Below are positions 13,400 through 64,000 of a stretch of 64,000 bases of DNA, in pieces. The translations under genes and the position numbers were made by a program. This DNA is from Sporosarcina psychrophila (GTDB taxonomy: Bacteria > Bacillota > Bacilli > Bacillales_A > Planococcaceae), in NCBI RefSeq assembly GCF_001590685.1, contig NZ_CP014616.1:1487001-1551000 (forward strand). Direction: 5' to 3'. The notes beneath the pieces were generated by a model that had not been told where the DNA came from, made no database searches, and saw nothing but the letters and a program-made list of their open reading frames with translations. Positions within the stretch are counted from its first letter, which is position 1. Every line of letters starts with the position of its first letter.

Positions 13400-14332
13400 A
13401 TGAAAAAAAGTATGCTATTGTTTGCGCTGGTTGTTGTTGGAGTCTTGTTGTCGGCATGTAACCAAGGGGCGACTGCTCCAAAAGAGAAGGGTGAAAAACT
13501 GCAAGTCGTTGCGACGTATTCGATTGTCTACGATATTGTGAAAAATGTCGGGGGAGATTTGGTCGATGTTCACAGCCTTGCACCGATTGGATCAGATCCT
13601 CACCAATATGATCCACTTCCGGCAGATGTCGCTTTGACGACAGATGCAGATGTTGTTTTTTATAACGGGCTAAATTTAGAAGAAGGAAATGCATGGTTTA
13701 CTAAATTGATGGAAACCGCTGGAAAAGCGGGGGAGGATGCGCCGGTATTTCGTGTAAGTGAAGGGGTTGAACCGATGCTCCTCAGTTCGAAGGACCATTT
13801 AGGGGAAGAAGATCCCCATGCTTGGCTTGACGTGCGCAATGGCATCAAGTATGTAGAAAACGTGCGTAAATCCCTGAAGAAAATTGATCCAGAAAATGCA
13901 GACATCTATGATGAAAACGCGGATGCATATATCACTGAACTCAAAGCCCTTCATGAAGAAATCGTGGAGAAAATGAACAAGATCCCAGAAGAACGACGGA
14001 TACTCGTGACGAGTGAAGGTGCGTTCAAATACTTCTCCAAAGCGTATGATTTTAATGCAGCCTACATTTGGGAAATCAATTCACACCATGAAGGAACACC
14101 TGAACAGCTGACAACTATCATTGCAACTATCAACGAGGAAAAGGTTCAAGCATTATTTTTAGAAACAAGTATCGATCCACGTAGCATGGAGATGGTATCA
14201 AGGGAAACGAATGTGCCGATTAAAGGGAAAATCTTTACGGACTCTCTAGGGAAACCTGGTGATGATGGCGATACGTATGTGAAAATGCTAAGATGGAACG
14301 CAGACATGATTTATAGTGGTTTGAATCAATAA
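13400..14332 (+). CDS. mntA: metal ABC transporter substrate-binding lipoprotein
   Basis: A 310-residue exported protein with an N-terminal signal and lipobox LLSAC (Cys at about residue 20), anchored to the outer face of the membrane. Cluster-9 metal ligands are recognisable: His in SDPHQYDP, His in EEDPHAWLDVRN, Glu in SEGAFKYF, and Asp in ETSIDPRSME. That His-His-Glu-Asp set is typical of Mn/Fe binders (MntA, PsaA, MtsA) rather than Zn binders with a His-rich loop, which is absent. ATG after GAAGGGGAAGATT. A terminator follows at once. Confidence 0.93.
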   Translation: MKKSMLLFALVVVGVLLSACNQGATAPKEKGEKLQVVATYSIVYDIVKNVGGDLVDVHSLAPIGSDPHQYDPLPADVALTTDADVVFYNGLNLEEGNAWFTKLMETAGKAGEDAPVFRVSEGVEPMLLSSKDHLGEEDPHAWLDVRNGIKYVENVRKSLKKIDPENADIYDENADAYITELKALHEEIVEKMNKIPEERRILVTSEGAFKYFSKAYDFNAAYIWEINSHHEGTPEQLTTIIATINEEKVQALFLETSIDPRSMEMVSRETNVPIKGKIFTDSLGKPGDDGDTYVKMLRWNADMIYSGLNQ

Positions 14333-14342
14333 CAAAATGATG

Positions 14343-14385
14343 AAGCAGCCAGGACTTTTTACTTCAAAAGTCCTGGCTGCTTTTT
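14343..14385 (+). terminator. rho-independent terminator after mntA
   Basis: AGCAGCCAGGACTTTT / AAAAGTCCTGGCTGCT perfect stem followed by TTTTT. Confidence 0.88.
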
Positions 14386-14402
14386 GGTGGAAATAGTTGT
14401 GT

Positions 14403-14528
14403 CGGTGATAACCTAATCCATGGCGGTGATAAGTCCGTTTGAGCCGGTGATAACCCAATCCGTGGCGGTGATAACCTCGTTTGAGTCGGTGATAACACAA
14501 TCCATAACGGTGATAAACTCAGTATAAG
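14403..14528. repeat. tandem array of six 21-bp half-repeats with alternating tails
   Basis: CGGTGATAA begins at 14403, 14424, 14445, 14466, 14487 and 14508, an exact 21-bp period. Tails alternate between a CCCAATCC(G/A)TGG type and a CTCGTTTGAG type, giving a 42-bp super-period. It fills the gap between the mnt terminator and the thi operon end. No coding sense. Confidence 0.85.
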
Positions 14529-14540
14529 CTTGTTTTTTTG

Positions 14541-15518
14541 TTAGTCCATATTAATGAAAATCCCATCAAGATTTGCTTCGTTTTTCAATAATCCGGTTTC
14601 TGACATCCAATCGGCAGTTGCTTGCCATGCCTGTTCATCCTGCTCACCAAACGTACCAGGTGCTGTCATTTTCGGAAGAAGAATCGAAAGTGACTCTCTT
14701 TCAACAACCTCGACGAGTGGGAAATTCGCTTCATCCTGGTATTTTAGCAAGATAGATAGCGCTTCTTCAGGATCTTTCTCCATATCATCAAAGGCTCTTC
14801 CGGCAGCGCGCCAAAATGCTTCGATGTTCTTTTGGTCTTTCTTCCACGTATCGTCACTTGTCACAACAATAAGTTCATAAAACGAAGGTATTTCGAAGTC
14901 TGTCGGGTCAATATAGCCTGTTGGAAATCCTTCATATTCAAGTAGCGGTACTTCATGATTAATATATGCCCCGATAACAGCGTCTGCTTTTTTTGAAATC
15001 AATGCAGAATTTAATTCAAACCCCACATCGACCATGTTTACTTTACCGTAGTCTGCACCATCTGCTTTCATCATTGTTTCTAGTATTGCTTCGTTCAAAG
15101 GGATTCCTGAATAGCCTACAGTTTTTCCTTCTAGATCTTTTGGTGACTCGATACCACTTTCTTTTAAAAATGCTACGTGATTCAATGGCGAACGAACGAG
15201 AACGCCGACGGATTTAATGCCGATATTCTGTTCAGACTTTGCAATTATAACGTCAGGCTGATAGGTGATGCCCATAGTCACTTTTCCTGCTGCTGCAAGG
15301 TTAATAGGATCAGTCGGACTTGCGGGGAACTTGATATCCAGTTCAATGCCTTCATCTTTGAAATAACCTTTTTCCTCCGCAACATAAAGGAAGCTATGTA
15401 CAGCATTAGGATACCAATCAAGCATGATACTTACCTTTTCTGTTTTTTCATTAGCATTGCACGCGCTGAGCAATAGGATTAGCGCAAGACTTGTAAGTGA
15501 TAATGTGATTTTCTTCAA
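14541..15518 (-). CDS. thiY: thiamine-precursor ABC transporter substrate-binding lipoprotein
   Basis: A 325-residue exported protein with signal peptide and lipobox LLSAC near residue 20. It belongs to the NMT1/THI5-like family, opening with MLDWYPNAVHSFLYVAEEKG, the typical pyrimidine-binding start of ThiY. It would capture an aminopyrimidine such as N-formyl-4-amino-5-aminomethyl-2-methylpyrimidine or HMP outside the cell. The start overlaps the permease stop by 4 bp. It is the last gene of a TPP-riboswitch operon. Exact ligand cannot be read from sequence. Confidence 0.9.
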   Translation of the reverse strand: MKKITLSLTSLALILLLSACNANEKTEKVSIMLDWYPNAVHSFLYVAEEKGYFKDEGIELDIKFPASPTDPINLAAAGKVTMGITYQPDVIIAKSEQNIGIKSVGVLVRSPLNHVAFLKESGIESPKDLEGKTVGYSGIPLNEAILETMMKADGADYGKVNMVDVGFELNSALISKKADAVIGAYINHEVPLLEYEGFPTGYIDPTDFEIPSFYELIVVTSDDTWKKDQKNIEAFWRAAGRAFDDMEKDPEEALSILLKYQDEANFPLVEVVERESLSILLPKMTAPGTFGEQDEQAWQATADWMSETGLLKNEANLDGIFINMD

Positions 15519-33184: not shown

Positions 33185-33650
33185 CGAGCAAATAGCGTTG
33201 CGTCCCGATCATATAACTGGATTGCCGATCAAATAACATTGCGTGTCGATCATATAACTGGATTGCCGATCAAATAACGTTGCGTCCCGATCATATAACT
33301 GGATTGCCGATCAAATAACGTTGCGTCCCGATCATATAACTGGATTGCCGATCAAATAGCGTTGCGTGTCGATCATATAACTAGTTTGCCGAACAAATAG
33401 CATTGCGTGTCGATCATATAACTAGTTTGCCGATCAAATAGCGTTGCGTGTCGATCATACAGCATTGCGTCCCGATCATATAACTGGATTGCCGATCAAA
33501 TAGCGTTGCGAACCAATCATATAACTGGTTTGCCGATCAAATAGCATTGCGTCCCGATCATATAACAGGTTTGCCGATCAAATAGCATTGCGTCCCGATC
33601 ATATAACTGGATTGCCGATCAAATAGCGTTGTGTCCCAAGCATATAAGCT
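33185..33650. repeat. large tandem array with 41-bp period (alternating 20/21-bp halves)
   Basis: About 22 half-units. Half A is CGATCAAATAGCGTTGCGTCC, shown here as CGATCAAATA + GCGTTGCGTCC (21 bp); half B is CGATCATATAACTGGATTGC (20 bp). They alternate strictly except near 33453, where B is cut after CGATCATA and joined to an A tail. Starts such as 33206, 33226, 33247, 33267, 33288 and 33308 show the 20/21 spacing. Non-coding; it lies between convergent genes. Confidence 0.9.
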
Positions 33651-61895: not shown

Positions 61896-62529
61896 ACCAA
61901 GGCGTTTCCGCTTTTCTTGTTGTCTAGCTCCAGGCGCCAGCCCCTCGAGTCGCTTCGGTCTTGCAGAAAAGGCAAAGTACGCCTTTATCTACAAGACCTC
62001 CAGCGCTTGTCGGGTCTAACCGGCGTCTTCCGCTTTTCTTGTTGTCTATCTCCAGGCGCCAGCCCCTCGAGTCGCTTCGGTCTTGCAAAAAAGGCAAAGT
62101 ACGCCTTTATCTACAAGACCTCCAGCGCTTGTCGGGGCTAACCGGCATCTTCCGCTTTTCTTGTTGTCTAGCTCCAGGCGCCAGCCCCTCGAGTCGCTTC
62201 AGTCTTGCAGAAAAGGCAAAGAGCGCCTTTATCTTCAAGACCACCAGCGCTTGTCGGGGCTAACCGGCGTCTTCCGCTTTTCTTAGTGTCTAGACTTCAG
62301 CGCCTAGCCCCTCGAGTCGCTTAGGACCTCAAGTTAAAGGCAAAGAGCGCCTTTATCTTAAGGTCCTTCAGCGCTTGTCGGGTCTCCCAAGGCGCTTCCG
62401 CTTTTCTTATTGTCTAGACTTCAGACGCCAGCCCCTCGAGTCGCTTCGGTCTTGCAGAAAAGGCAAAGAGCGCCTTTATCTACAAGACCTCCAGCGCTTG
62501 TCGGGGCTAACCGGCGTCTTCCGCTTTTC
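61896..62529 (+). repeat. five tandem copies of the 122-bp structured repeat
   Basis: GTCTA starts recur at 61922, 62044, 62166, 62288 and 62412 (period 122, once 124). Each unit runs GTCTAGCTCCAGGCGCCAGC, CCCTCGAGTCGCTT, an inner hairpin GGTCTTG .. AAGGC-AAAGTAC-GCCTT .. CAAGACC, AGCGCTTGTCGGGGCT and ends CGTCTTCCGCTTTTCTT. Copy 4 replaces the inner stem by GGACCTCAAG .. CTTAAGGTCC. The array ends at the stop codon of the FtsA-like gene on the other strand. Confidence 0.92.
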
Positions 62530-64000
62530 TTACGTAAAACTAATTTCAAGTCTGTCGCCGCCGAAAATAGCATCGTTGAATCCGATTGGTGTGTCGTTTC
62601 GAAGCAGTTTATAATTACTTGATGGGTTTTCGGGTAAACTATAATCTGTAAACGCAAAGATGTCGCCAAAAGTAATAGGACTTTCACTTAGTGATACAAA
62701 ATCAAGATGATCCCCAGGTTTTACAATGGCAGATACTTCAGCACTATGCCCGTTTAAAGTAAAGGTAAGACGTGGTTTTTGAATTGTGACGGGTTCATTG
62801 TTGAATAGTACTGTTAGTTTATCGAACGCCTTTTTACCTATCTCAGCTACAACTTCATCTATGGTAGGGAATGGCGGTTTTTGGGTTGTAATTCGGTCTC
62901 CATCTTTCAGTACGTGCGATGGCTGCACCGAAGTCCCCATGATGAAGAACTCGTTGTTCTTTTTTTTCAAGGTGACCGTTCTTTTATTGACGGATACTGT
63001 GAAAAGATTGTCCTTTAAAAGGTCATTTCGATGTGCTTTTTCAAATACTGCCGCGACTGTCTTGGTGTGTGAAACTGTGATTTTATCACGGTCTTGTATC
63101 GATGTATCGATGCTTTTTAGAATTCCATTAATATGAATAAGGGGCTCCAATTGCACGGCAACTCCGTCCAACATTGCACTGATGGCTCTCATATCCTCAA
63201 CAAGGTCACGCACAGTCGCTATTGCGTTAGTACCATCACTGCCGGGAAGTAAGTTGATTGTATCTCCATTTTTAATGCAGTCTTTTGTACTTGCTTTTAC
63301 CCCATTTAATAGGATTGTTGAGGGGGTACCATGTTCTCCTGGTATTATTATATCATTGTCATTTACTGTTATCGTCATTCCAAGTCCGGGCATACCGTAT
63401 AGTTGACGGGCTTTAATGTTTGCTGCAAGGAGTGCATCACTGACGGTCATCTCTTTTAATTCGAAGAGTCGTAGCACCTTGTCATTTACGGACACGGACA
63501 TATAATGAATCGGCGCTCTTCTTGCTGCGATAGCGATACCGATTGGTGTGACGAGTTCTGGCGATGAAGCTATACCGGGTTCCAATGTAATTCCCGAGAG
63601 AGCATCCAACCCACGAATACCTACCCTGTTTTCGGGTAGTCCTAGGCATATACTAATTTCTTTTGTCAGCCCCGGCGTTAAACTACCGCCGCCAACAACC
63701 ATGACTGCTTTAGGGGAAACTCCATTGTTCAGGCGCTTGATTTCATCCGAAATGGATTTGGCAAGCCGATCTACAGCAGGTTTAATAATAGCGGTTACAT
63801 CACTTGAAGCAACATTATCTTCAAAGCCGAGAATGTCTGTCATGACAATTGTATCTTCTGTTGTAATACTTCTTTTTGCAGTCTCAGCAAGTTGGAAGTC
63901 AAGGAGATAATGGTTGCTGAGTGCTTCTGTAATTTCATCACCTGCAAGTGGCACCATTCCGTAAGCCACAACGGTGTTGTTATCGGTAATAGCTATATCT
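62530..64000 (-). CDS. FtsA/PilM-like actin-fold protein (5' partial)
   Basis: The C-terminal 490 residues of a protein that continues beyond the window (open frame DIAITDNNTVVAYGMVPLAG from the edge). The actin/Hsp70-fold signatures of FtsA-like proteins are visible: AYGMVPLAGDEITEAL, and the phosphate loop VMVVGGGSLTPGLTKEI. After about residue 150 of this part, several domains look like ubiquitin/ThiS-type or SLBB folds (NDNDIIIPGEHGTPSTILLNG, KDGDRITTQ, VKPGDHLDFV), not seen in canonical FtsA. In Bacillales such long proteins are annotated cell-division FtsA-domain proteins; the role is uncertain. Confidence 0.78.
   Translation of the reverse strand, partial: DIAITDNNTVVAYGMVPLAGDEITEALSNHYLLDFQLAETAKRSITTEDTIVMTDILGFEDNVASSDVTAIIKPAVDRLAKSISDEIKRLNNGVSPKAVMVVGGGSLTPGLTKEISICLGLPENRVGIRGLDALSGITLEPGIASSPELVTPIGIAIAARRAPIHYMSVSVNDKVLRLFELKEMTVSDALLAANIKARQLYGMPGLGMTITVNDNDIIIPGEHGTPSTILLNGVKASTKDCIKNGDTINLLPGSDGTNAIATVRDLVEDMRAISAMLDGVAVQLEPLIHINGILKSIDTSIQDRDKITVSHTKTVAAVFEKAHRNDLLKDNLFTVSVNKRTVTLKKKNNEFFIMGTSVQPSHVLKDGDRITTQKPPFPTIDEVVAEIGKKAFDKLTVLFNNEPVTIQKPRLTFTLNGHSAEVSAIVKPGDHLDFVSLSESPITFGDIFAFTDYSLPENPSSNYKLLRNDTPIGFNDAIFGGDRLEISFT

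Follow-up and report, generated by a model that had tools for sequence, protein, structure and literature searches.

Plasmid iterons are direct repeats with a step of about two helical turns. A CRISPR array has repeats of ~24-40 bp and unique spacers of similar length. The RacA sites and parS of Bacillus subtilis form origin-side clusters for a chromosome-organising protein, and are inverted or palindromic sites rather than long direct arrays. At the type II centromere parC, according to the accounts cited here, ParR of pSK41 binds 20-bp direct repeats (PMC9426499, PMC5016525). Of the chromosomal words and repeats, AIMS are reported as polar octamers that are biased to the leading strand and become denser toward the terminus (PMC5993296), and REP/BIME elements are described as palindromes in alternating orientation (PMC2817692). 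Here we describe chromosomal arrays of Sporosarcina psychrophila whose anatomy resembles that of centromere or iteron arrays. The starting point was a window of 64,000 nucleotides (contig NZ_CP014616.1, positions 1,487,001 to 1,551,000 of the forward strand) for which a first-pass annotation had reported two arrays with one layout. That observation is correct in detail and underestimated the scope of the phenomenon.

The two arrays of the window

The window array occupies 14403..14528 on the forward strand and is built of six 21-bp units, each a 9-bp head, CGGTGATAA, followed by a 12-bp tail. The heads start at 14403, 14424, 14445, 14466, 14487 and 14508, which confirms the exact 21-bp step claimed for them; the five head pairs at this distance compare with none in each of 100 dinucleotide shuffles, so that none is expected by chance. 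The tails had been said to alternate, giving a 42-bp super-period. Tandem Repeats Finder indeed scores a period of 42 (86% matches) above one of 21 (63%), and five tails alternate in the order CCTAATCCATGG, GTCCGTTTGAGC, CCCAATCCGTGG, CCTCGTTTGAGT, CACAATCCATAA; the sixth, ACTCAGTATAAG, fits the alternation poorly.

The upstream gene (13400..14332, forward strand) is of the ZnuA family (PF01297) and points toward the array, which starts 21 bp past its predicted intrinsic terminator (14344..14385, forward strand; 16-bp stem, 6-base loop and T-run, found by reading and by a scan). Between terminator and first head we read the stretch GGTGGAAATAGTTGTGT (14386..14402, forward strand), perhaps a decayed first unit; similar GGAAAT stretches also precede some arrays elsewhere. 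From the other side, a gene for an NMT1/THI5-like binding protein (PF09084; 14541..15518, reverse strand) converges on the array, which ends 12 bp before the 3' end of that gene. The neighbours are transport genes (ZnuA, ABC-3, ABC_tran and NMT1-type), and the array adjoins no parM/parR operon.

The second array of the window (33185..33647, forward strand) is composed of 20-bp and 21-bp units with CGATCAWATARC heads. Both arrays had been placed at convergent sites after a terminator. This holds in full for the array at 14403; the one at 33 kb does sit between convergent genes, but the terminator scan found none ahead of it, and a hairpin with a T-run, judged by eye, follows it. The two had also been regarded as independent sequences, which cannot be maintained: their heads, CGATCATAA and CGGTGATAA, differ at just two positions and, since the head types of the genome are related words, the two arrays look like dialects of one design. 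The window also holds a repeat of a different kind, a 122-bp tandem repeat of 5.2 copies at 61901-62531.

Number, orientation and gene context across the chromosome

A scan of the 4.67-Mb genome revealed many more arrays than the two of the window, so that the outcome named as refuting in the first-pass annotation, a genome with these two cases only, did not materialise. The exact pair CGGTGATAA-12-CGGTGATAA occurs 23 times and CGATCATA pairs at 20/21 bp occur 142 times, with no match in the reversed control of the former or in the control of the latter. In 33 stretches of 20 kb (660 kb) spread over the chromosome and chosen without regard to arrays, a Tandem Repeats Finder list judged by reading gave 14 arrays of the two-turn architecture, which scales to ~100 intergenic arrays per genome; the remaining sequence that we examined was taken around pattern matches and is enriched for arrays, so that only these 33 systematic stretches are unbiased. 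A third head type, GCCGTGACAGTT, is found in arrays 1118391, 3635172 and perhaps 4605341, and the head CGGTCATAA in two further arrays, 1069393 and 1264616. A very long 18-bp tandem repeat, TGACGCCGACGCAACTGG, with 97 copies (L031 2692-4436, genome 1002691-1004435), probably encodes a low-complexity protein. A coding repeat was rejected for the two-turn arrays: CGG TGA TAA holds stops on the head strand, and all 43 arrays examined in this genome are intergenic. The short ORFs predicted across six of these arrays are most likely spurious.

Heads are spaced almost exclusively by multiples of ~20.5 bp (20, 21, 41, 42, 62 and 82), as direct repeats, and no opposite-strand head was found within 130 bp of a head in the sequence examined. 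Isolated heads are no commoner than chance in the 33 systematic stretches (22, with ~29.5 expected), which excludes a dispersed single motif or DNA uptake sequence.

We then related the head strand to replication, with origins bracketed by GC skew rather than by dnaA. The skew changes sign at 2.32-2.60 Mb and between 4.62 Mb and 0.10 Mb across the record start. Among 40 CGATCATA- and CGGTGATAA-type arrays, heads lie on the leading strand in 34, on the lagging strand in 5, and are ambiguous in one, array 2584990 near the terminus (p 2e-6). Orientation counts omit the three GCCGTGACAGTT-type arrays, for which no objective choice of head strand can be made (two of the three carried a strand in the unfiltered context count given below). 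Genes are also leading-biased (230 vs 39 same-direction gaps), and the informative cases are therefore the convergent gaps, where the head is leading in 12 and lagging in 1. In same-direction gaps with the head against the genes, the fork is followed in 4 of 6. The complete genome of S. thermotolerans repeated this pattern: by hand count, 17 of 19 sites run with the fork, 1 against it and 1 is ambiguous. For 92 arrays of other species, 59 were leading, 14 lagging and 19 unclear by a rougher measure, the GC skew of a single locus of at most 8 kb; their convergent gaps, by the same local skew, are less one-sided (14:5, 2 unclear). The arrays also become sparser toward the terminus. Only 2 of the 142 CGATCATA pairs lie in 1.55-3.35 Mb, and S. 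thermotolerans, whose origin is at 0.42-0.55 Mb, has 63 of its 73 pairs in the surrounding 0.14-0.97 Mb.

The first-pass annotation had proposed a test for enrichment between convergent genes. With genes called by a purpose-written script rather than an established gene finder, and for 39 of the 40 arrays (one at the edge of the available sequence was left out), convergent gaps hold 13 of 39 arrays and make up 86 of 437 gaps, which is suggestive only (p 0.06). The avoidance of divergent gaps is clear (0/39 arrays vs 82/437 gaps, p 0.0007). Without the filter for short weak ORFs, the counts are 16/42 convergent and 1/42 divergent, instead of 13/39 and 0/39. Fork-following orientation, which the first-pass annotation missed, is a stronger rule than convergent enrichment.

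A predicted terminator stands ahead of 23/40 arrays, compared with 142/443 gene ends. This excess and the absence from divergent gaps would be expected if protein-bound arrays past terminators blocked read-through, chiefly between converging genes. Such a transcription barrier predicts either orientation in convergent gaps, however, where 12 of 13 arrays follow the fork, and it leaves the depletion near the terminus unexplained; we regard it as improbable. An action of the units within read-through RNA, as sites for Rho or an RNA-binding protein for instance, is still harder to credit. In favour of such an RNA-level element, the arrays are mostly 3' of a same-strand gene, the heads running in the direction of the upstream gene in 32/39. 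Most arrays with a predicted terminator nevertheless sit past it, the 20/21-bp helical step has no obvious meaning in RNA, and no Rfam family comes near threshold (in 14200-14700, no match near the gathering score). A conserved hairpin was rejected as well, the head strands showing no conserved fold; looking by eye only, we found no consistent pairing in which heads form loops and tails form stems.

Array growth, conserved heads and dialects among relatives

We compared tails at increasing distance. Within CGATCATA arrays, their identity reaches 0.71 at lag 2 and stays at 0.68 at lag 4, with 0.36-0.40 at odd lags, and it is higher at lag 2 than at lag 1 in 40 of 45 CGATCATA-type chains. The lag-2 excess indicates that alternation marks the copying of blocks of two units. 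The window array is a direct instance, since two relatives, L126 and L060, carry three units at its site. In the CGGTGATAA arrays of other species the effect is slight or missing, and single-unit duplication also occurs, some arrays repeating one unit (S. limicola L073). Two-unit alternation is a growth mode and no fixed design; it is strong in the main family here and not universal.

The heads behave differently. In three orthologous arrays, that is, gaps with an equal unit number in two species, 3/108 head positions differ between species vs 50/144 tail positions (p 5e-11). Across five genomes, information content approaches 2 bits in head columns and 0 in tails, apart from weak bits at -4 to -2 and +9; the head values are inflated by the 2 mismatches that the search for heads tolerated. 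Tails of neighbouring units are about as similar as tails from different arrays, both for the CGATCATA type (0.357 vs 0.343) and for the seven CGGTGATAA arrays of this genome (0.318 vs 0.350). The proposal that a shared constraint lies behind the one layout is borne out, many arrays keeping the 20/21-bp step and the heads while the tails change between species. Conserved heads clustered on one strand form the pattern that would be expected of a binding site recurring along one helix face.

Block duplication would equally be evident if the arrays were selfish or neutral minisatellites that change by slippage or unequal exchange, their orientation reflecting strand-dependent stability and no function. 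At the site of the window array, unit number varies among relatives, with 3 units in L126 (resembling the last three of the window array) and 3 in L060 vs 6 here; some arrays are near-perfect single-unit repeats; and by RNA energies, many CGATCATA arrays fold better on the complement than on the strand of the heads. Against this, neither strand of the seven CGGTGATAA arrays has a special fold (z -1.3 to 2.1), and CGGTGATAA arrays are polarised in S. thermotolerans too. Moreover, minisatellites explain neither conserved heads beside unrelated tails nor the common 20/21-bp step across dialects. We consider this explanation unlikely, but worth keeping in mind.

Beyond this genome, the CGGTGATAA pair was found at 118 loci at least. 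Named matches are mostly Sporosarcina species, Filibacter tadaridae and a Psychrobacillus; among the matches listed, those in unrelated taxa resemble, by eye, chance or coding repeats. Going by the named matches, the array-bearing family would be Planococcaceae, in which the CGATCATA pair is present in 20/250 genomes. In a sample of the order, CGnTnATAA three times at 21 bp, with one mismatch allowed, matched 78/261 genomes from 10/19 genera, some of the 78 with one match only, and the dialects CGCTGATAA and CGCTCATAA were seen in other genera of the family. The reversed-pattern control of this sample was not clean: in the two genomes followed up, G049 and G170, control matches belong to another array family, with the head GCGAGTATT. 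In a sample of the class, the exact pattern matched 9/348 genomes, of which 2, with 2 matches and 1 match, lie outside the family. Arrays of other dialects occur in other genera of the family and hardly outside it. Presence is patchy even within the genus Sporosarcina, which argues that the role of the arrays is not essential; in G002, G110 and G146, which scored zero in the order sample, 220 kb read contained no such array.

Several other repeats came to light in these searches. G049 and G170 are of the same family (genus g14), and their separate 21-bp arrays with GCGAGTATT heads have pyrimidine-rich tails and, in some arrays, near-identical units. The 21-bp repeats CGGTGATAACGTTCCATCAAA on several contigs of the Planctomycetaceae MAG Th196P3bin88 (L061, L062, L107, L118, L132 and L140) are possibly coding, open frames passing through both loci examined (L062 and L118), or an independent family. 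Records titled Arthrobacter beigongshangensis REN13 (L068 and L071) look mislabelled or mixed: the contigs have 41-42% GC, and kilobases of L068 align to Sporosarcina loci, with which L071 has array sequence in common.

Arrays stay at the same gaps between species, and the dialect at a gap can change. The CGATCATA-type arrays 157399 and 3649077 of S. psychrophila have counterparts of the CGGTGATAA type in Filibacter (L115), S. luteola (L043) and S. highlanderae (L044), with both flanks matching. Such a change is either conversion of the array or reuse of the same gap; both are compatible with altered recognition by a trans-acting factor, and neither proves it. Leaders of the form GAATTGTAGTCAAT or GGGAAATT..GGTCGAA recur ahead of the first head at different loci in S. 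luteola, S. koreensis and S. thermotolerans, and could represent either a specialised first unit or a boundary that was copied.

Direct repeats about two helical turns apart also look like plasmid-type iterons for a Rep_3 initiator, or decoys of these. This is largely refuted, since Rep_3 has no match in this genome; in the genus, 9/68 genomes match, with no relation to the arrays visible on comparison by eye. The window array has no match in the plasmid collection, and three-unit patterns of two dialects found 0 viral contigs. Rep_3 iterons or their decoys are accordingly very hard to believe in. Mobile-element cargo was likewise rejected, nothing similar being present in the plasmid and viral collections searched.

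A putative binding factor and described systems

The reading that we prefer is that the arrays are cooperative binding sites for a putative factor with a role linked to replication or to chromosome organisation. Judged from sequence patterns, this whole explanation is about as probable as all others together, and binding by itself is likelier than that. A sequence-specific DNA-binding factor would contact each head through the core CGnTnATAA and weak flanking bases; neighbouring bound heads would lie on one face of the helix, where binding would probably be cooperative, and the tails would be mostly spacer. Arrays would expand and contract by blocks, mostly of two units in the main family here. 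More speculatively, a bound array might form a polar nucleoprotein structure that is put to use, or tolerated, in a single orientation to the fork, and that helps to organise the chromosome near the origin or acts as a barrier past the ends of genes. The specificity of the factor might have shifted between lineages, and the arrays along with it.

We suggest, tentatively and with less than even confidence, that this is a family-wide system new to the literature: fork-oriented, origin-side two-turn arrays, a putative protein with a shifting dialect, and arrays converted or rebuilt at the same gaps. In open-licence literature without preprints we found no description of such arrays; an account may exist in a subscription journal. 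If bound as proposed, the arrays would provide a single chromosome with some 100 centromere-like platforms, whose built-in polarity refers to replication and whose recognition code varies from species to species. The joint change of a DNA-binding protein and its hundreds of sites could then be followed in a natural experiment, as could the reason for polar nucleoprotein structures on a chromosome. Even as selfish repeats and nothing more, the arrays combine fork-dependent orientation and two-unit growth at many sites and are a good test case for repeat dynamics.

Among described systems, CRISPR arrays are unlike those found here, in which 9-bp heads alternate with 12-bp tails that, in the main family, recur at lag 2. 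With RacA sites and parS of Bacillus subtilis the arrays have origin-side clustering in common, but they are long and direct where those sites are inverted or palindromic. Iterons differ in that the present arrays are many and chromosomal, in a genome with no Rep_3 protein. A leading-strand bias is common to the arrays and to AIMS/KOPS-like words; AIMS, as reported, are single words denser toward the terminus, whereas arrays are sparse there. REP/BIME elements, in the account cited above, also have many intergenic copies per genome, but are palindromic and alternating, in contrast to arrays without inverted head pairs within 130 bp. In form the arrays are also like parC/ParR as described in the cited accounts: both have tandem direct repeats with a helical step, the repeat sequence varies between families and sets specificity, and at parC the binding protein builds a higher-order complex (PMC9426499, PMC5016525). 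In those accounts parC occupies one site only, upstream of the parM/parR operon to which it belongs, whereas the arrays described here number ~100 and are dispersed along a chromosome.
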